The notes under the pieces were generated by a model. The model searched no databases and was not told the DNA's origin. It saw nothing but the letters and a program-made list of their open reading frames with translations. From a virus, in the IMG/VR virus record IMGVR_UViG_3300010399_000036, positions 17,119 through 81,118 of that record: a DNA stretch of 64,000 bases. The stretch is one strand, 5' to 3'. The translations under genes were made by a program, and so were the position numbers. Positions within the stretch are counted from its first letter, which is position 1; each line of letters opens with the position of its first letter. Shown one piece after another: positions 1,289 to 57,706 of the stretch.

Positions 1289-4228
1289 ATGGCAGTCTCA
1301 TTTCGTGTTACAGGTACATGGGCAGAGCTAATCGCCGATGGCTCTGTTGCGATTCCCGCGACTCCACAAGCAGGCGATCGGATGTACCTGTTTGCGCGCT
1401 GGAAAGATTTCTCGATTACTGCGCAAGTTACCTCACCAGCAGGCTGGACTGAATTAGTAGAGTTTGCTGACGGCTCAACCAGTTCTGGCAATGGGACGGG
1501 CTCTGTGAAAGTTGCTTGTTGGTATCGAGACTGGCAATCCGGAGACACAGACCCGACCATCGACTTTTCTGCAAGCCCAACTACAGCAAGCGCCGTAATC
1601 ATGGTAATGGCGAAAGCTGCGTCTGATTCGTGGCTAACTCCTGTCGCCGTTACTGCGGCAATGACGAATTGGACCACCTCTTCACAAACTGTTTCAGCAA
1701 GTTCTACGGCTAACGTTCTTGGCGGCGGAGTCGTCATGGGGCTGATCGGCATCCGTGATGACACTGCGACGATGACGCGGCCCACTAACGGGATTGACGA
1801 TTCAGCCGGGGCTATTACATGGAATGGAAACTATGTCGAATCTCCTGCAACACATCACTCGACTACTACGGGTGATGATGGCGCGGCAGACCTCGGTTAT
1901 CGGTTGGTAAGCGCGGGAGCAACCGCAACCCTACGCATGACAGGAACGATCTCCGCGGCAGAAACAGGAGCAGCGTTGTGGGTAGTTCAGGGTGTGGAAG
2001 CGAATCTCACTGTTCAGAATTCCAGTCACGCACATGCCGCAGCCAATGTCTCACTGACTCAGGTTCATTCGCTTGTGGTTGCTAATGCTAGTCATGCGCA
2101 GGCTGTCGGCAACATAACTCTCACGCAGGTCCATGGCATTGTTGTGCAAAACGCTTCTCACGCACATACCGCAGGCAGTCCCACGTTGACAGAGGTTTCT
2201 AATCTGACAGTTCAAAACAGTAGTCATGCTCACTCTGTTGAATCACTCACGCTTACTCAAGTTCATGCCCTGACAGTAGCGAACGCGACACATTCACACA
2301 TAGCGCAAAGTCCGAATGCGCGTACATTCCAAATCACCTGGCTCGACCCCGGTGGTGATGCGGTACAAGCAACAGGGTACTTCAACAATGTGATTACCGG
2401 GGCGGTGAGCTACGACGCCACGCACCAAGTTGCTGGAGTTGGTTCGTGGAAGTTTGACTCCGACACTGGGGCAGCGGCTTATGTCGAAGTGCTGGGAGTG
2501 CTGGACGCTAACCGTCGCATTAGCTTCTACTGGCGCTATGACTCGGTGCCGGATCATACGGAGACGAAGACGGAGTTTGCGGACACTAGCACCGTACAGG
2601 ACTATTCGGGTGGTGGGTTTAGTCTCCCCGGCGGTAGTAATAGCTGGAATGTTGATAACGGGGTGTATCACACTGCAACCCCAGCGAAGAACTCCGGTCA
2701 GGGAAATATTTGTACGTTTGCTGCTCTTGATGGCGGTGTCCCACTCTCCGCCGTCATCGACTCGGTAAAGATCATCTATGAGCGCAAGTTCGATGTGAAC
2801 ACCTCTATCGGCATCTCGCGTGTAAAGACGCGCATTGATGGCGTGGAAGGCCCGAACTATGACAACACCGACATGCCGCTGGTGGATACAGTCGTCACCG
2901 TTGACATCACCGCTGAACGGGCGTGGACGCCGCCAGACTTTGCCGCTGACGTGTTTGAAGTGATCGCCGAAGCTCGCCGTGGTGACACTGACACCGCCCA
3001 CACACAAAGTTGGGACTACGTGAAAGTGGAGGTTGTGTATCACTTGCCAGTGGGAATCATCACAGCAAATGATGGTCTAAGCGGCGACGAAGGGTGGCGT
3101 ATTGCAGTCACTCCAAAGGGCGATGGCGTAGTGTTGAGACTTGTCGAAGGTGACTTTAACGCTGGACAGGGAGCGGGCTATGACGGAATTACTGAACTAC
3201 TTGCAAATACACCTTATAGAATCGGCATCGGCTATGTAGTCCACGGTGCTGATGACCTAGAAGTAAAGCTATACATCAACAGTGTTGAGGAACTCTCAAT
3301 TGAGGGGGCTGCTACTGCTAGTAGTGACGGCACTCAGTTAACAGCTCTCCGCTACGGCTGGCTCGGCAACCCCGGTGCCGACCACCTCACATGGTTCACC
3401 CACCTGTACGTTGACGACGGCGACGACCTCACTGACCCCGGCAACAAGCTGACCACGGCTAAACTTCCTGCCTCTGTCAACCAGAACAACTGGACCACGA
3501 CAGGTGGGACTGGCGCGGTGGATGAGCGCCCGCTGAGTGAGACGAACTACAAGCGGCACTCAACCGCCATTGGCACCGTGCGTCAGACCTACACGCTACA
3601 GGATGCCGCTACTGGGGATGTGGACATCAGTGGCGAGACGATTGTCGGCTACATGGCATGGGCATGGGTTGAGGCTGACATCGGAGCGGACAGCGGCTAC
3701 GTCTACTTAGTTGTTAACGGGGAGGACTATGGTAACGAACTTCTGGACAGTCAGTTTGACGAGGTAGTTTCACTGGTCCGTCGCGCTGTCACAACAACCG
3801 CGTATCCATCCGATGCCGACGGTATTGGGGCGGCCTTGATCGACGTGGAAGATTTCACTGTTGTCATCCTCTACGAATGCGGCATCGTCGTCTGCTACGA
3901 AGGCCCTGACACTGACGACCCGCTGTTCCCGTTGCAACTGCTTGCCTCATCGGCCAGCACCAGCGACGATATGGGTGGAACGCCCCCTGCTGAATACGAG
4001 TTGAAGAACACAGTGCTGCCAGCCGCTGGCGCGGTGATGACGACGACGATTAGTTCCCGGACCGCTGAAGGTGAGGTGCCGCAACAGCAGGCTATCATCG
4101 AGACGCAGGGCGGTGACGAGACAGGGATAGTTGTCATCAGTCCCGGCGTGGAGGTAAGCGTAGACATCGACGTATCCGGCACCAACACCAGTGTGGAGTT
4201 GCGACGAGTGGACCAGACGGTAATCTAG
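1289..4228 (+). CDS. large tail-fibre protein with histidine-rich repeats (979 aa)
   Basis: The N-terminal ~230 residues look like a beta-sandwich. Then come five 22-residue units (about residues 240-345) of the form L.V.NA.HAH.A.....LTQVH. A long beta-rich C-terminal part follows, made of several domains of the lectin/jelly-roll type. Repeated His-x-His motifs recall the metal-binding shaft of the T4 long tail fibre tip (gp37), where HxH residues from three chains hold iron; that comparison is inference. The next large gene (4522-7332) carries the same repeats, so the two are related. The start has no strong ribosome site and lies just after a terminator hairpin. Role: host-contacting fibre. 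Confidence 0.7.
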   Translation: MAVSFRVTGTWAELIADGSVAIPATPQAGDRMYLFARWKDFSITAQVTSPAGWTELVEFADGSTSSGNGTGSVKVACWYRDWQSGDTDPTIDFSASPTTASAVIMVMAKAASDSWLTPVAVTAAMTNWTTSSQTVSASSTANVLGGGVVMGLIGIRDDTATMTRPTNGIDDSAGAITWNGNYVESPATHHSTTTGDDGAADLGYRLVSAGATATLRMTGTISAAETGAALWVVQGVEANLTVQNSSHAHAAANVSLTQVHSLVVANASHAQAVGNITLTQVHGIVVQNASHAHTAGSPTLTEVSNLTVQNSSHAHSVESLTLTQVHALTVANATHSHIAQSPNARTFQITWLDPGGDAVQATGYFNNVITGAVSYDATHQVAGVGSWKFDSDTGAAAYVEVLGVLDANRRISFYWRYDSVPDHTETKTEFADTSTVQDYSGGGFSLPGGSNSWNVDNGVYHTATPAKNSGQGNICTFAALDGGVPLSAVIDSVKIIYERKFDVNTSIGISRVKTRIDGVEGPNYDNTDMPLVDTVVTVDITAERAWTPPDFAADVFEVIAEARRGDTDTAHTQSWDYVKVEVVYHLPVGIITANDGLSGDEGWRIAVTPKGDGVVLRLVEGDFNAGQGAGYDGITELLANTPYRIGIGYVVHGADDLEVKLYINSVEELSIEGAATASSDGTQLTALRYGWLGNPGADHLTWFTHLYVDDGDDLTDPGNKLTTAKLPASVNQNNWTTTGGTGAVDERPLSETNYKRHSTAIGTVRQTYTLQDAATGDVDISGETIVGYMAWAWVEADIGADSGYVYLVVNGEDYGNELLDSQFDEVVSLVRRAVTTTAYPSDADGIGAALIDVEDFTVVILYECGIVVCYEGPDTDDPLFPLQLLASSASTSDDMGGTPPAEYELKNTVLPAAGAVMTTTISSRTAEGEVPQQQAIIETQGGDETGIVVISPGVEVSVDIDVSGTNTSVELRRVDQTVI
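2006..2320 (+). repeat. five tandem 66-bp (22-aa) HxH repeats in fibre gene
   Basis: Five consecutive units in register at 66-base spacing, starting at 2006. Each has a hydrophobic L.V start, a HxH pair near position 8-10 (HAH, HAQ, HAH, HAH, HSH) and, in most units, LTQVH near the end. The DNA copies are diverged while the amino-acid pattern is kept, which points to selection on the protein. Confidence 0.85.
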
Positions 4229-4238
4229 GAGAGTAACG

Positions 4239-4514
4239 ATGAGTACTTGGGAACAACGCATGGGCGGTAAAGTGAAGCAGAGGAAGCGTCAACGCGATAG
4301 GGCAAAGCGGTATCGATACGCCTTTGGGCTAGCCCGAATCTACGAACTCGGACCACCACCCCTACCGCCTGAATGTCCACCTTGTTGCTGGGGTTATCAG
4401 TGGTATCAGAATCACTGGGTACTGTTTACCACCTGCGGCTACGACTGGACTGATGACTATTGCTCTCACGAGCATCACCGGAGTGACTTGCCGCCTTTAG
4501 CAATGACGGCTTAG
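4239..4514 (+). CDS. small Cys/His/Trp-rich basic protein (91 aa)
   Basis: ATG with TAGGAGAG upstream. The N-terminal 30 residues are strongly basic (KVKQRKRQRDRAKRYRY). The C-terminal half has CPPCCWGY, a lone Cys, and CSHEHHR, so metal binding is possible. Similar short proteins sit between fibre genes in other siphophages without a known role. It lies 10 bases from the preceding fibre gene and 7 from the next, clearly in the same operon. Confidence 0.6.
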   Translation: MSTWEQRMGGKVKQRKRQRDRAKRYRYAFGLARIYELGPPPLPPECPPCCWGYQWYQNHWVLFTTCGYDWTDDYCSHEHHRSDLPPLAMTA

Positions 4515-4521
4515 CACGAAT

Positions 4522-7332
4522 GTGGCAAACCCAACCGTCTTCAACGCCATAGCAACCAACCCCGGCGGTACGGGTTCCACTATCACTGTCACGCTCTCCA
4601 CCCACGCGGTCGGCGACCTGCTCATCATCTATGTCGCCAACACCGGCAACGTGCTGTGGACTGGCAACCCCACCGGCTGGTCCCGCATCGACCAGCGCAC
4701 TGTCGGCACCTCCACCAACGGCATCGTCGGCACCTGGCTGTGGCGTAAGGTGGTGTCAGGCGACACTCTGCCACTCACCAACCCACAGTGCACCCTCGGT
4801 GCCACCGTCACGCGCCTCGCTACTTGTCGCACCATTCGCGGCGCAGACCTCGAATCACCGTTCGTCACCCCCAACTACGGCCAGCGCGGCTTCAGCACCG
4901 GGACATCGAACCCTGCTCGTCCACCGACGGTGGTTACTTCAGCGCCAGAGATGCTCGCCCTGCACTGCTACGGCTCACGTGCAGCCACCAACGCGCCTGA
5001 CCCGTCTGGCTACACCGCAGACGCAGAGGCGATAGCCAGCGGAACATTAGTAATTAACGCCGCCAGTCAGGTAATCGCCGACCAGAACACCAGTCTCAGT
5101 AATCAGGATGCGTCACCCACCAGCGGCGCACGCTGGGCCTCAGGCATCATCTGCATTCCAAGCAAGGATTACCCCTACTCTCGTGCCGGGTCACAAGGCA
5201 GCCAGCTCAACGGCACCAGCGTGAACGTCACCTTGCCCACTGGAACCACCAGCAGCGATGTCAACGGCAATAAAGACTTGATTATCGCCACAGTCGAGGC
5301 AGTCGGTACAGCCCCGTCACCCAACAGCCCCGGCGACTGGACTGAAGTTGGCGGCGCGTGGTCAGGAACCACCTCCGGCGGTGCAACCACCATCCGCAAA
5401 TACTGGGCACTGTACGATGGCTCAATAGACGCTCGGTTCAACCGCACTGGGTCAGGGGAAATCAGCGCCTGCCTCACGACCTACTACAACTGCCATCAGA
5501 CTGCGCCGGTGGGATTGTCTGACGCCGATGCTCGCGCTTCATCAACCACTTCGACCTGGGACGCGGTATCACGGAGTTTTACGCACAGTCTTGTGCAAGC
5601 CACTTGTGTTGCCGATGCTGTCCCAACCTTCACTGCCCCTGCTGGATGGACCGAGCGCATGGATGGATTAGGCATTGCCTGCGCTGATCAAACCTTCAAC
5701 GCCACGGGTTCCACGGCGAGCGCGTCGTTCACGCTCTCGACTGCCAGTCCGACGCTGGTGGGTCTGGTGGAGATTAAGAGTCCAACCGGGGTTGGGTCGA
5801 TCGATCTGATAATACAGAACGCGGCGCACTCACACACGGCTGCTAATGCAGTGCTCACCCAAGTCCATGCTTTAGTAATCGCTAACGCTGCTCACAGTCA
5901 CTCAGCGGGGAATATCGCCTTAACTCAAGTTCACGAGCTCGCGGTTCAGAATAGTCTCCACTCGCACTCAGCAACCAGCCCAGTAGTCACACAAGTCCAC
6001 GCACTTACGGTTCAAGGCGGCCCACATGCTCACACCGCTGAAAGTCCAACACTGACTCAAATCCATGTGTTGAGCGTGGCGAGCGGTGTTCATTCGCACT
6101 CCAGTGAGAATGCGGTGCTGGTGCAGGCTCATCAATTGACAGTGAGTAGCGCGACTCACGATCACACCGCTGAGAGCATCGCGCTTACGCAGACTTACAA
6201 CTTAACTATCGCATCGGGAACTCATGCACACTCCAGCGAGAACGTAAGCATAGTCATTGTGTTGGGTGTAGACGCAGCGACTCACGGCCATCTTGCGCAG
6301 AATGTTGACCTAACGCAGGTCCACGAACTTGTCGTCGCAAACGGTGCCCATGCGCATATCGCCGAATCGCCTGCCTTAACACAAACCCACGCGATACAGG
6401 TTGACGATACAAGTCATGCCCATGTGGCAGATTCCACGACCCTGACCCAGGTTCATATCCTGACGGTTGCGGACGCGGTTAACGGTCACACGGCAGCCAG
6501 TTTAAGCCTTATCCAGGTCCACGAGCTCGCCGTCGCCGACAGTGCGCACAGTCACGCAGCCCAGTCGGTCGCGCTCGTTCAGGAACACGCGCTGCAACCT
6601 GCCGACGCGAGCCACGCGCAGACTGCGGACTCGCCAACACTCACACAGGTTCACGCCCTGTCAGTTGCCGATGCTACTCACGGACACTCTGCTGCGTCTC
6701 CATCTCTAACCCAGTCCCACGAACTGGTTGTCGCTTCGACTTTGCATGGACATAGCGCAGAGAATGCCGACGTGAATCAGGCTGCCGTTTTGGTTCTCCA
6801 GAATGCGACCCATGAGCATTCGGCTGAAACGGTAGGGTTAACACAGGCGCATCTGATCGCCATTGATGACGGAGCCCACGCCCACACAGCCGAACACCAG
6901 GTGCTCACTCAGATCCATAACCTTACGATACATAACAGTGCTCACGAGCATTTAACTTCGAGTGTTGTTCTTAGTGCTGCGACTGACCTGATAGTAAGCG
7001 ACGGTGCGCATAGTCATACGGCGGACGGTTTGTCGTTGACACAAACTCAGAACCTAAGCCTCCAATCAGCGGTACACTCACATTCGGCTGATGATCTTGC
7101 TATTTCTCAGGCCCATGGCTTAGCTATTGAGAGCGCAAGCCACGGTCACGTAGCACAAAACGTAGTTTTAGGTTTAGCAAACGCTCTTGTTATTTCCAAT
7201 TCAGTTCATGGACACACGACAAGTGGTGTCTTATTGGTGTGGCCGATACCGATCGATATGTACGTGATACCCGAGAGTTCGCAGTTCATGACGATACCGA
7301 CTTCAAGCCAGATTTTTCAGATTGATCGGTAG
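4522..7332 (+). CDS. tail-fibre protein with 22 HxH repeats (936 aa)
   Basis: GTG start. Residues 1-430 form two beta-sandwich-like domains (Gly/Thr/Ser rich, with TGWSRID and AGWTERMD segments). Residues about 429-910 are 22 tandem units of 22 residues, each with a HxH-type pair (HSH, HAH, HDH, HGH, HEH) and usually a second His in LTQVH. The C-terminus is short (PIPIDMYVIPESSQF...) and hydrophobic. The layout matches a head domain plus a long fibrous shaft. If trimeric, each repeat could bind one metal ion, as in the T4 gp37 needle; this is inference. Paralogue of the 1289-4228 protein. Confidence 0.7.
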   Translation: MANPTVFNAIATNPGGTGSTITVTLSTHAVGDLLIIYVANTGNVLWTGNPTGWSRIDQRTVGTSTNGIVGTWLWRKVVSGDTLPLTNPQCTLGATVTRLATCRTIRGADLESPFVTPNYGQRGFSTGTSNPARPPTVVTSAPEMLALHCYGSRAATNAPDPSGYTADAEAIASGTLVINAASQVIADQNTSLSNQDASPTSGARWASGIICIPSKDYPYSRAGSQGSQLNGTSVNVTLPTGTTSSDVNGNKDLIIATVEAVGTAPSPNSPGDWTEVGGAWSGTTSGGATTIRKYWALYDGSIDARFNRTGSGEISACLTTYYNCHQTAPVGLSDADARASSTTSTWDAVSRSFTHSLVQATCVADAVPTFTAPAGWTERMDGLGIACADQTFNATGSTASASFTLSTASPTLVGLVEIKSPTGVGSIDLIIQNAAHSHTAANAVLTQVHALVIANAAHSHSAGNIALTQVHELAVQNSLHSHSATSPVVTQVHALTVQGGPHAHTAESPTLTQIHVLSVASGVHSHSSENAVLVQAHQLTVSSATHDHTAESIALTQTYNLTIASGTHAHSSENVSIVIVLGVDAATHGHLAQNVDLTQVHELVVANGAHAHIAESPALTQTHAIQVDDTSHAHVADSTTLTQVHILTVADAVNGHTAASLSLIQVHELAVADSAHSHAAQSVALVQEHALQPADASHAQTADSPTLTQVHALSVADATHGHSAASPSLTQSHELVVASTLHGHSAENADVNQAAVLVLQNATHEHSAETVGLTQAHLIAIDDGAHAHTAEHQVLTQIHNLTIHNSAHEHLTSSVVLSAATDLIVSDGAHSHTADGLSLTQTQNLSLQSAVHSHSADDLAISQAHGLAIESASHGHVAQNVVLGLANALVISNSVHGHTTSGVLLVWPIPIDMYVIPESSQFMTIPTSSQIFQIDR
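5806..7250 (+). repeat. 22 tandem 66-bp (22-aa) HxH repeats
   Basis: The units run in phase at 66 bases except one of 60 bases (VDAATHGHLAQNVDLTQVHE lacks two residues). Consensus: L.V...A.H.H.AE...LTQ.H. HxH is kept in about 20 of 22 units (exceptions NGH and HAQ). DNA identity between units is low, so this is an old array and not a recent slippage product. Confidence 0.88.
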
Positions 7333-53653: not shown

Positions 53654-54787
53654 ATGACATTAAGGATTACACGAGCAACCGACCCAATTACCGTGGAGCG
53701 ATTGGTGCAGTGTATCTACGCCCCTCCGGGGATAGGTAAGACATCGATCGCTTTCACTTCACATAAACCTCTTTTGCTTGACTTCGATGGCGGTGTTCAT
53801 CGTGCGGTATTCAGGCTCGATACTGTCAAAGTCGAAACCTGGGATGACGTTGCGGAGATAAGCGATGACGATCTGCGTCAATACCGAACCTTGATATTTG
53901 ATACAGCCGGTCGCGCTCTGGATGTTCTTTCAACTGACATCATCAAAAAGAACCCAAAGATGGGCCGATCAGGCGGTGCGTTGACTCTACAAGGCTTTGG
54001 CGAACTCAAGGCGCGGTTTATCGCGTTCACACGGATGATCCGATCTTTTGGTCTTGACATAGTATTACTGGCCCACAGTGACGAGCAGAAGAACGGAGAT
54101 GATCTAATCGAACGGATCGATGTTCAGGGCGGATCGAAGAATGAGATTTACAAGGTCGCCGACATGATGGGCCGCCTGTACATTCGGAACGGTAAACGAT
54201 ACCTAAACTTTAATCCCTCTGAAACAGCTTACGGTAAGAACCCCGGACGACTCGGTGAGGTTGAAATCCCTGATCTCCAAAGGGTGGATAACCGCGGTTT
54301 TCTTGGCGAGTTGTCGGACAGGGTTAAGGCCGAGCTGAACAAGTTAACAGCGGAGCAGCAAGAAACCGCAACCGTTCTCGCCGAGTGGCAAATTAAATTC
54401 GATTCGGCCAACACGCCCGATGAATACAACGGGTTTATTCCTGAATTTGGGCAACTACCTGAGGCCGTCAAGCTGAACGTTGGCCGTCTATGGCTCAAGA
54501 TCGGAAAGGGCAAGGGATGGGAGCAGGACAAGGAAACAAAACAGTTCCGGGGCGAACCCGTCGAACCATTCACCCCTATATCGGTTAACGGGAAAGACGG
54601 GATGACCAAGAAGCAGCAGAAGGAGATTGAAGAACTTGCCGAAGAGTTGGAACTTGAAGACGTAGACGCGGAGGCCTCAAAGGTCTTCAGCATGGATCTA
54701 AAAGTTAAGAATCTATCGAAAGAGGGCGCCGAGCGCCTGATCGTAGACCTCAAGACAAAAGCCGATAGCGTGGGGGCGCGATTCTAA
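53654..54787 (+). CDS. RecA-fold ATPase, AAA_24/Sak4-like (377 aa)
   Basis: Walker A is APPGIGKT (residues 23-30); the Walker B-like LIFDTAGR is near 80; a DIVLLAHSDEQ strand carries the sensor region. This fits phage AAA_24 ATPases related to Sak4, which act in single-strand annealing recombination. The C-terminal 150 residues are charged and may contact partner proteins. Followed directly by a RecB-like nuclease gene. Confidence 0.75.
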   Translation: MTLRITRATDPITVERLVQCIYAPPGIGKTSIAFTSHKPLLLDFDGGVHRAVFRLDTVKVETWDDVAEISDDDLRQYRTLIFDTAGRALDVLSTDIIKKNPKMGRSGGALTLQGFGELKARFIAFTRMIRSFGLDIVLLAHSDEQKNGDDLIERIDVQGGSKNEIYKVADMMGRLYIRNGKRYLNFNPSETAYGKNPGRLGEVEIPDLQRVDNRGFLGELSDRVKAELNKLTAEQQETATVLAEWQIKFDSANTPDEYNGFIPEFGQLPEAVKLNVGRLWLKIGKGKGWEQDKETKQFRGEPVEPFTPISVNGKDGMTKKQQKEIEELAEELELEDVDAEASKVFSMDLKVKNLSKEGAERLIVDLKTKADSVGARF

Positions 54788-55399
54788 ATGCGGCTGAGCG
54801 TTTCCGACCTCCAGTGCTGGCAGCGTTATCGCAAGAATCAAGAGGTAACGCTTGAAGACTGTCTTAGACAGCTTCGCCGTGAAGAGCTGCCGAGTCCGGC
54901 TTTATTGGCCGGCAGAAAACTTCACAAGGCACTGGAGTCGGCACAGTACGATCAGGATGATGTAAGTCCTTTCGGTCAATCAGTCCTTAAGTACAAAGAC
55001 TACGTGTTCATTTTTCAATGTGACGTTGAAATCTCAATTCCGCAGGTGCGTGAGCTCAAAGGGGAAATGCTCGTTGAGACTAGCACTGGTCCTGTAACGC
55101 TAGTTGGTGTCGTGGATTCTGTCGACGTGTCGGTTTCTGATTACAAGTTAACCGGCCACTTCGATTCTGAGCGACTGATCGCTTCTTATCAGTGGCGTTG
55201 CTACCTGCAAATGTTTCAGCGACATCGGTTTGATTACAAAGTATTCGTTGGCGAAGAAATCAAACCAAAAGAGTGGGCCATTAAGGATTATCACGAACTC
55301 TCTGTGTATGGCTATCCAGGTATGGAGCAGGATATTCAACGAGAAGTCGGAGAGTGCGCGAGATTTATGCGTGAGCATGTATGGCCCAAGGCGGCGTGA
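54788..55399 (+). CDS. PD-(D/E)XK (RecB/Cas4-like) nuclease (203 aa)
   Basis: LLAGRKLHKALESAQ (H46), LVGVVDSVDVSVSDYKLTG (D110 and DYK 118-120) and IASYQWRCYLQMF (Q/Y helix) follow the RecB-family order. No Fe-S cysteine cluster is seen. ATG starts right after the ATPase stop. Exonuclease partner for recombination or replication. Confidence 0.75.
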   Translation: MRLSVSDLQCWQRYRKNQEVTLEDCLRQLRREELPSPALLAGRKLHKALESAQYDQDDVSPFGQSVLKYKDYVFIFQCDVEISIPQVRELKGEMLVETSTGPVTLVGVVDSVDVSVSDYKLTGHFDSERLIASYQWRCYLQMFQRHRFDYKVFVGEEIKPKEWAIKDYHELSVYGYPGMEQDIQREVGECARFMREHVWPKAA

Positions 55400-55625
55400 C
55401 GATCTTTGCGCGGATCAGGGTTTTTCGCTGGATCAAACCAGCAAAGGGTACTTAGGTATCCTCTGGCCAAAAACTTCAGGTTCGCGCAAAACTAAAGATT
55501 CCTTTGGCGACTCCATGATCTTAGTGCTGGTCCACCGGAAAGCCACGGCCGCCATATGTTGCGTCAGGCTTGACTTTGGCGGTAGGAGAGAAACCGCCAC
55601 TTCTGGAAACGAGAGACTGCAATGA
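55378..55625 (+). CDS. possible protein overlapping the nuclease end (82 aa)
   Basis: From ATG 55378: YGPRRRDDLCADQGFSLDQTSKGYLGILWPKTSGSRKTKDSF...LVHRKATAAICCVRLDFGG. The middle reads like a small beta domain. There is no ribosome site and it overlaps the previous gene by 22 bases; a competing ATG (55381, other frame) ends after 24 codons. Doubtful. Confidence 0.35.
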
Positions 55626-55777
55626 TCTGCACAGAATGTAAAGACGTGATTCCTTTTTACGAAGAGGATCACAACCCGTTTGACGAGAACGACGCCAACA
55701 TAACGGCCATACTCGGATCGGTTGACTGTTTTGAACGCTATCTGCAACGACAATCGCAGAACAGTTATTTGAATTGA
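55622..55777 (+). CDS. small acidic protein with CxxC (51 aa)
   Basis: ATG 55622. ICTECKDVIPFYEEDHNPFDENDANITAILGSVDCFERYL: a Cys pair plus one Cys, acidic. Last gene before the long gene-free stretch. Confidence 0.5.
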   Translation: MICTECKDVIPFYEEDHNPFDENDANITAILGSVDCFERYLQRQSQNSYLN

Positions 55778-55794
55778 GTTTCCACAAAGGGCTG

Positions 55795-57165
55795 AGTAGC
55801 GCGCGGAGACTGAGGCCGAAACGCGTGAAGCCCAAAACACTTGCTGAGCGATGAACGTGATCGATACTGCTGAGCCTCAGACAGACGGCAAGTGCTTCGA
55901 GAGTATAGAGACTCGACGGCCTGAATAGTTACAAGATCGGGACTGTTGGAACCGTGAGGGCTAACGCAGGGTAATCGGCATTACGAAGTGGCCGAGGAAA
56001 CGGGACGCCTAACCCGTCAAAACCTCAACGTCGGGGAAGTCGGAGCACCGACACGGAAAGACGTGACTTACGCCGGATGGAGAGAATCCGGCACTGGTAT
56101 TTGAAGTTCGGTGAACCCTGATGCGGGGCGCCGCAAGGAAGGCTCAAGGGCTGGAGCGGGTCGTACTCGGCAGGGATTCAGGGGCTGGATTCCTTAGTCC
56201 GGAGTTTTCGGCCCCTGTCTAAATCTTTGAAAAGTTTGCGCGGCTGATTAGAGGCATCTGGAAACCACGCGGTTGTGGGACATGGCCGTAAGAGCGTCGC
56301 TAAAAAGGTGGGTTAAGCGCTACGCTCCCTCAAAACCAGATGACCGATTGTTTCGTGGGTTGATACATGGTCCATCGGCCTGTTAGCCGCGCAAAAGAAA
56401 TCTTGAGTCGCCCGTGTTGATTTGTTGAGATGGCCTCAACCAGCACGGACGTTAGACCACCAGCGCCTAGCACTAAGACGCTGATAATCCTGTAAGGGTT
56501 TTGTGCTTACCGATAAGGGGCGTGGTTCGGGGTGATCGGACAGAAGCGTAGGCGTTGTCCGGCGACTCAGGGTTCTTTGAAGATTCTCCGTTTCGTGCTT
56601 GTGCTGGCCGAGTAGTAGTCGCGAGAGCTCGTCGTACCGAATGAAACGAAGTCGGCGCTAGACGGGAAGATGTTACGAACCAAGCGCAAGGGGGCACACG
56701 GCGACGGTTCCGCTCTGCGACGCGTTAACGCTCGATGAGCCGCTAAATAGCGCAGAGACTCTTGCGGCGAGACGGAGAAGTTTTATGGGCGGCGATTTGA
56801 ACACACAAGCCGAACGTCAGAAATGTTCTTCTGAAAAGTGGTCGGAAGTGGGTCCAACCTCGTAGCAACAAGGTCGCCGCCCGCCCAAGTTAGCGGCGCA
56901 TTGATTCGCGTTTGCTGTTGTAAATCCAGAAGGGAGCAGTAAACGCGATCATAAAGAGAGAAGCTGGCGAATTTCTTTTCTTGCGGGGGGTTGTGAGCGG
57001 AGGAGTTCGCTGGCTCTCTTGAAAACACCTAACCGAACCAGGGGAAATCAAAATCAAGGGGAAAAAAGTGCATCGTGGGATCTCAATTAGTGTGCTCAAA
57101 AATAAACTTTCACTTCATGCTTTCATGTTCTCAGTTCTTAAAAACGCTCGTTGGCGACCGAGCAA
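55795..57165 (+). ncRNA. large ornate non-coding RNA candidate (about 1.1-1.35 kb)
   Basis: No convincing gene on either strand over about 1.5 kb, in a genome otherwise packed with genes. Many perfect stems are visible: ACGGG/CCCGT (56000-56017); ACGTC/GACGT enclosing GTCGG-AGCA-CCGAC (56028-56064); GCCGGAT-N7-ATCCGGC (56072-56092); CAGGGGC/GCCCCTG (56179-56217); CCAC/GTGG (56265-56278); GAGCGT..CGCT/AGCG..ACGCTC (56292-56327); CCGTG..GTTGAG/CTCAAC..CACGG (56412-56448); CGGACA/TGTCCG (56537-56561); and GGGCGGCGA/TCGCCGCCC (56787-56882) around TCAGAA/TTCTGA. GCAA tetraloops (CC-GCAA-GG near 56130; GC-GCAA-GG near 56686) point to the + strand. Size, phage context and structure recall GOLLD, ROOL or OLE RNAs, but I cannot match any consensus. 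Structure thins out after about 57,000. Confidence 0.65.
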
Positions 57166-57167
57166 TA

Positions 57168-57281
57168 GAATCAAGTGTCGAGCCTCTTTTGTGTAGAGGC
57201 GCCTTCTGGACATGTCGTTACTTGATTCCGGCGTGAACACCAGGTCGCCAGGCGTCTCTACAAAGAAGAGGCTTTTCTCTT
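57168..57281 (+). promoter_or_regulatory. switch-like leader with two exclusive hairpins before the DUF1376 gene
   Basis: Option A: GAATCAAG (57168-57175) pairs with CTTGATTC (57221-57228), enclosing CCTCT/AGAGG. Option B: 57181-57203 pairs over 23 bases with 57251-57273, followed by TTTTCTCTTTT. B uses the CCTCT arm and encloses CTTGATTC, so the two folds exclude each other. B looks like a terminator and also hides AGAGG, the only ribosome site before TTG 57282. Confidence 0.6.
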
Positions 57282-57629
57282 TTGAAGGAAAAATTACCCG
57301 CTGTTCTTTGGTACGCGAGCGATTGGCTGGGCAGTAACACGCGAGCGCGAATGACCTACCAGCAAAGGGACGTTTATCTCACGCTTTTATTTCGCTCCTG
57401 GTACGAAGAACCTGCGGGCACCTTACCAAACATTCCTGAAGAGTTAGCAATGATGGGCGGTATCGACCTTGAAACATGGGAACGAATCAACGGTCCAATT
57501 ATAGCGAAGTTTCAGAGCGACGGGAATGGCCGTATCTTCAATCCTCGCATGTTGAAAGAGGCGCGGAAGGCTCGCGGCAGACGGGTTGCCGGGGCGACTG
57601 GCGGCAAGCAAAAGGCTAGCAAACAGTGA
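57282..57629 (+). CDS. DUF1376 (YdaU-like) protein (115 aa)
   Basis: PAVLWYASDWLGSNTRARMTYQQRDVYLTLLFRSWYEEPAGTLPN is the DUF1376 signature, found in phage and prophage replication regions. TTG start is required to keep the family's N-terminus. The end GGKQKASKQ is encoded by the first iteron copies. The function of the family is not defined; a replication accessory role is inferred. Confidence 0.75.
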   Translation: MKEKLPAVLWYASDWLGSNTRARMTYQQRDVYLTLLFRSWYEEPAGTLPNIPEELAMMGGIDLETWERINGPIIAKFQSDGNGRIFNPRMLKEARKARGRRVAGATGGKQKASKQ

Positions 57630-57681
57630 AGCAAAACTCTAGCAAAAGTGTTAGCAAAATCGTAGCAAACCGCTTAGCAAA
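57607..57681 (+). repeat. iteron array: seven AGCAAA repeats at 11/12-base spacing
   Basis: AGCAAA starts at 57607, 57618, 57630, 57641, 57653, 57664 and 57676, i.e. spacing 11, 12, 11, 12, 11, 12 (about one helical turn). Most copies read TAGCAAAA. The first two are inside the DUF1376 reading frame. An inverted copy (TTTTGCTA, 57690-57697) follows. Such phased iterons are typical of initiator binding sites; the genes that follow encode ParB-like, helicase and primase proteins. Confidence 0.8.
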
Positions 57682-57706
57682 ACTCCGACTTTTGCTAGCC
57701 GTTTTT
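57675..57706 (+). terminator. terminator-like hairpin at the end of the iteron array
   Basis: TAGCAAAA (57675-57682) pairs with TTTTGCTA (57690-57697), loop CTCCGAC, then GCCG and TTTTTT. It may end transcripts from the DUF1376 gene or be the last, inverted iteron of an origin. Confidence 0.5.

Follow-up and report, generated by a model that had tools for sequence, protein, structure and literature searches.

A gene-free stretch of about 1.3 kb between replication genes of a phage as a candidate large, modular structured RNA

Why would a phage keep 1.9 kb of DNA, containing one plausible small gene (51 aa, 55622-55777), between the stop codon of a RecB-like gene and a DUF1376 gene? The window, as the whole stretch of DNA analysed is called here, comprises 64,000 nt, bases 17119-81118 of the 81,118-base linear IMG/VR virus record IMGVR_UViG_3300010399_000036, and the gap is the largest ORF-free gap of this 81-kb record (1,441 b with no ORF reaching 90 aa). 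It lies within a replication module that runs from a Sak4-like gene (53654-54787) over the RecB-like gene (54788-55399) and the gap to the DUF1376/primosome-like gene (57282-57629), past which follow a ParB-like gene, a helicase and a primase-like gene. A close cultured phage was not found, the window helicase being at most 34% identical to phage records, and phages of the same gene order, numbered with an L below, were collected by protein searches with the neighbouring genes. The gap and its borders contain the following features.

54788-55399, + strand: RecB-like protein gene (PHROG 34697), the upstream neighbour, syntenic in L003, L131, L132 and L134
55405-55490, + strand: multibranched hairpin directly 3' of the RecB-like stop codon, with like architecture in L131, L132 and L134 as judged by eye (SW not significant)
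55622-55777, + strand: possible 51-aa gene, coding-like score +7, for which no relatives were found
55772-57090, + strand: candidate giant structured RNA, no coding signal, MFE z -5.74
57176-57281, + strand: long hairpin followed by a U tract, reaching up to the DUF1376 start codon; terminator or attenuator
57282-57629, + strand: DUF1376/primosome-like gene, probable replication initiator, adjoined by the upstream hairpin

Some further observations concern the window more generally. The orphan 51-aa ORF has a CxxC motif, and the fold at the start of the RecB-like coding region (54800-54999) is unusually stable on either strand (z -6.3 and -5.5). Two hairpins at 55578-55601 and 56072-56095 have different stems (GCGGT/ACCGC and CCGGAT/ATCCGG), similar GGAGAGAA loops and an identical CACT tail. 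Far upstream, at positions 1289-7332, a repeat of the LTQVHxLxVxNAxHxHxAxS type recurs many times in two large proteins.

The original prediction, that the gap is free of genes and filled by a large non-coding RNA, held in its first part. Between 55772 and 57090 there is no ORF longer than 81 aa, codon-usage scores in the gene-free region are mostly negative in all six frames, and the maximum over the six frames averages -2.9 bits per 150 nt, compared to +10.6 for the phage's own genes. The same segment folds on the + strand with a minimum free energy of -512.3 kcal/mol (z -5.74), a value as low as which was reached by none of 60 dinucleotide shuffles. The minus strand has a z of -3.6, six coding controls of the same phage range from -3.0 to +1.0, and further gaps poor in ORFs, taken from this phage and its relatives, from about -3.2 to +2.5; large gaps in G001 and elsewhere have neither similarity to the element nor comparable excess folding. 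The excess sits in the total energy, in domain D3 (z -5.9) and in 56900-57030 (z -7.3), and 200-nt windows inside the element are mostly unremarkable. Taken together, a non-coding, structured nature of 55772-57090 is well supported.

How is this structure organised? The earlier reading had listed perfect stems of 5-9 bp, which by themselves are expected by chance, and a 9-bp helix (56787-56795/56874-56882), which is indeed perfect and is accompanied by longer stems, a perfect one of 11 bp (56235-56245/56385-56395) and one of 12 bp (56584-56595/56768-56779). In the minimum-energy fold the two ends of the gap pair with each other (55772-55785/57075-57088, 12 of 14 nt) and enclose a row of domains, D2, D3, D4, D5 and two terminal hairpins, as listed here.

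55772-55785, + strand: 5' arm of the closing helix, pairs with 57075-57088, probabilities mostly >0.9
56219-56234, + strand: linker CUAAAUCUUUGAAAAG preceding D2, common to L132 and, as UCUUUGACGAG, to L003
56235-56395, + strand: domain D2, closing helix UUUGCGCGGCU/AGCCGCGCAAA, retained in L003 and L132 with compensatory changes
56399-56574, + strand: domain D3, z -5.85, closing helix probability near 1
56584-56779, + strand: domain D4, whose closing helix H4 is swapped pair by pair in L003
56594-56692, + strand: conserved core CGUGCUNGUGCUGGCCGA...GCRCUAGA...ACCAARCGYAARG, common to L003
56787-56882, + strand: domain D5, the 9-bp long-range helix of the original prediction
56900-57030, + strand: two strong terminal hairpins, D6 and D7, z -7.3 on the + and -1.7 on the - strand
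57075-57088, + strand: 3' arm of the closing helix, partner of 55772-55785

The closing helices of the ends, D2, D3, D4 and D5 have pair probabilities that are mostly at least 0.9. In total, 167 pairs have high confidence (p>0.9), a count that lies within the shuffled range of 122 +/- 45 and is exceeded by one coding control (221). A linker motif of the CUUUGAARR type stands at 56225, 56575 and 57018 and occurs 24 times in the whole 81-kb record, both strands counted. A 15-nt inverted repeat (55807-55821/56206-56220) was considered as closing helix of a domain D1 and rejected at a pair probability of about 0. A search for promoter-like sites found none.

Is there a relative in which this structure can be compared? 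Usable relatives are very few among the 2.9 million viral contigs searched, and one of them is L003, in which the gap between the RecB-like and the DUF1376 gene contains an SSB gene and then 300 gene-free nucleotides (5131-5430). This piece, the new observation here of a gene-free RNA in the same slot, is collinear with window 56480-56800 in a MAFFT alignment. Among 816 tiles from four phages this match to the element ranks first, and it appears on the + strand only (77 versus 42 for the other strand); it is the sole outlier of 42 gap and strand comparisons (SW z 5.9), and the similarity exceeds that of all shuffles (0 of 300-500). The common sequence includes CGTGCTNGTGCTGGCCGA, GCRCTAGA and ACCAARCGYAARG, and several indels have lengths not divisible by three, which fits a non-coding sequence. 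Wider searches added little: among 40 related viral records BLAST gave short matches worth following in L003 alone, a covariance model of the core matched window and L003 alone, a DNA pattern of the core, run over viral contigs, hit L003/L004 only, with the remaining matches by chance, a protein scan of genome contigs and a DNA pattern gave no real match, and nucleotide searches of cultured phages and plasmids gave no match.

Helix H4, which closes D4, can be compared between the two phages. It is formed by TTCTCCGTTTCG/CGAGACGGAGAA in the window and by TTGCAGTCCG/CGGGCTGCAA in L003, with full pairing in both (12/12 and 10/10 bp). The register is the same: in both phages the 5' strand ends in CG directly before TGCTKGTGCTGGCCGA, and the 3' strand, preceded by GCGG, starts with CGRG. 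Of the ten pairs compared, starting at the inner end, five are the same in both phages and five have both partners exchanged; these double changes were read off the helix pair lists, with conserved flanks on both sides. By chance, an H4 partner that pairs completely would turn up within the permitted range with a probability of about 0.5% in L003 and 0.14% in the window. The domain order differs, a D4-like domain preceding a D2-like one in L003 whereas in the window D2 comes before D4.

The second module shared between phages consists of UCUUUGANNAG and, within 4 nt, a helix starting with UUUGCG, and is present in the window, L003 and L132. The linker UCUUUGANNAG occurs 203 times in 7.4 Mb, and the few others that are followed by a helix have unrelated stems; a scan with the 16-mer linker returned, among the matches listed, L132 alone of the loci examined, the rest being chance matches. 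Between window and L132 the D2 helix differs by two double changes (G-C to A-U and C-G to G-C), bringing the compensatory pairs to seven in two helices, five in H4 and two in D2. The whole window/L003 sequence alignment, however, has an alifold z of +0.43 and no covariation signal.

L132 and L131 carry RNAs of 340-430 nt directly after the RecB-like gene, which can be aligned to each other with an alifold z of -4.57 and 19 compensatory pairs, compared to about 0 in coding controls. The 26-nt module is the sole link between L132 and the window element, and L131 is connected through L132 alone; beyond this module neither of the two has significant similarity to the element. In L134 the slot is filled by a multibranched hairpin of 90 nt, and further relatives (L258 and beyond) have genes there instead, which points to a structured RNA in one phage subgroup, one that varies greatly in size and content. 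The slot RNAs measure about 90, 300, 340, 430 and 1,300 nt, a range of more than tenfold. L132 also has a second gene-free stretch of 387 nt (2506-2892) that is not significantly structured by energy (z -1.2).

We conclude that 55772-57090 is a real, fast-evolving and modular structured RNA, expanded to about 1.3 kb and probably representing a new family. For the large non-coding RNA originally proposed, the missing coding signal, the excess folding energy, the strand-specific homologue in L003 and the seven compensatory pairs speak in favour, whereas most helices are without comparative support and covariation is confined to two of them. That the 1.3 kb form one single giant RNA is likely, most of the length resting on one sequence. 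The best explanation, to which we assign a probability of roughly one half, is a multidomain non-coding RNA of about 1.3 kb, an expanded version of the modular slot RNA, that acts on its own in the manner of GOLLD and ROOL. We infer that the element would be transcribed on the + strand within the phage replication operon, and that its boundaries lie near those given above. Its ends would pair, with domains in series between them joined by short CUUUGAARR-type linkers, and among the modular RNAs of about 90 nt to 1.3 kb that follow the RecB-like gene in this phage group it would be the expanded form. We consider it most likely that processing, or an end at the hairpin before DUF1376, would set the RNA free, and that it may then act on its own during infection, as a stable RNA like GOLLD and ROOL.

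In the main rival reading the element would act in cis, as a 5' leader or attenuator of great length: the RNA together with the 57176-57281 hairpin would set transcription of the DUF1376 gene, as in plasmid copy-number control. This hairpin, with its stem and U tract, looks terminator-like, a terminator or an attenuator, and it ends exactly at the DUF1376 start of the window. Counterparts lie at or near the DUF1376 start in L002 (2018-2122), L003 (5702-5800) and L006 (5902-6003), with stem sequences that are wholly different and yet paired. The gene itself is primosome-like and carries at its 3' end seven AGCAAA[AC] iterons with 11-12-bp spacing (57607-57682), shorter arrays being found at the same place in L002 (2469-2520), L003 (6326-6355) and L006 (6326-6378). 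Judging from the repeats, a replication origin inside the initiator gene is likely; lambda O is an initiator gene with such an internal origin. All this would suit a regulatory leader. However, L002 and L006 keep hairpin, initiator and iterons without the large RNA, suggesting that the RNA is not needed for control of DUF1376, and L131, L132 and L134 carry a slot RNA with no DUF1376 gene in the sequence examined. For both reasons a free GOLLD-like RNA is the leading mechanism, and we consider the leader unlikely, at about half the weight of the free RNA. The hairpin pair that had been read as a possible terminator of the RNA is real and conserved, but belongs equally to the DUF1376 leader, since relatives without the large RNA retain it. 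L002 additionally encodes a tRNA-Ser with the unusual anticodon ACT (379-453), the anticodon-arm sequence of which recurs inverted about 60 nt downstream (491-512).

Somewhat less probable still is that the gap holds a string of intergenic hairpins unrelated to one another, along with the remains of gene leaders, serving mRNA stability, processing or termination, the linkers being relics of ribosome-binding sites. Such an origin of the linkers is possible, as they resemble leaders such as AAUCUUGAAAGGUAAAUC-AUG in L132, and the strong differences in size and domain order among relatives as well as a pair confidence not above that of shuffles would fit. On inspection, though, none of the three linkers of the element is followed by a start codon, and a loose array would explain neither the pairing of the two ends with each other nor the pairing and register of H4 and D2 retained across phages, nor the global energy z of -5.74. 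A missed protein gene or an assembly chimera, conceivable for a single metagenomic contig with few relatives, is very improbable given the mostly negative codon scores in all six frames, a flanking gene order that agrees with L003, whose gap has a homologous non-coding piece, and the good reading of the phage's other genes under the standard code.

What would a stand-alone RNA of this kind mean? Very few RNAs of such size are known outside rRNA, and the functions of the giant RNAs of phages, GOLLD and ROOL, are still open. A bolder version of the preferred reading, which we put forward tentatively, is a new family of giant phage RNAs exceeding GOLLD in length, which would have grown in a fixed slot as domains were added to a small ancestor and would work as a free, perhaps self-assembling machine in infection. 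If the slot RNAs were confirmed as one family, they would offer a view of how giant RNAs grow by domain addition and of their essential core, and the 300-nt form of L003 would lend itself to structural study.

How does the element compare to known systems? Attenuator or terminator leaders of replication initiator genes usually span a few hundred nucleotides at most; the likeness lies in the long hairpin and U tract that immediately precede an iteron-bearing, primosome-like gene, the difference in the presence of this hairpin in relatives without the large RNA. Membership in a known family had been suggested as one outcome, but Rfam covariance models gave no match to the element even at E up to 10, including GOLLD, ROOL, OLE, HEARO and group I or group II introns, indicating that it is none of these, and scans of the RNAs of four relatives gave no match either. 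OLE, at about 600 nt (PMC12054373), is like the element a large, structured and non-coding RNA; unlike the element, OLE resides in Bacillota chromosomes, not in phages, and its model is among those without a match. ROOL is a large ornate RNA of phages and prophages with complex secondary structure and unknown function (PMC12286853), and the element, likewise phage-encoded and large with a complex predicted secondary structure, differs by the missing Rfam match, the missing tRNA island and another context. GOLLD RNAs are phage-encoded and non-coding, many members exceed 800 nt, and they consist of one conserved and one variable part; they often lie near tRNA islands, sometimes with a tRNA inside, rise during phage lysis and form a 14-mer cage (PMC12286853). 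The element, known here as a genomic segment alone, resembles them in being phage-encoded, non-coding and longer than 800 nt, but it has no Rfam match and is not near tRNAs (none was found in the 64-kb window), and with its length of about 1.3 kb it sits between replication genes and has relatives that vary in size more than tenfold.
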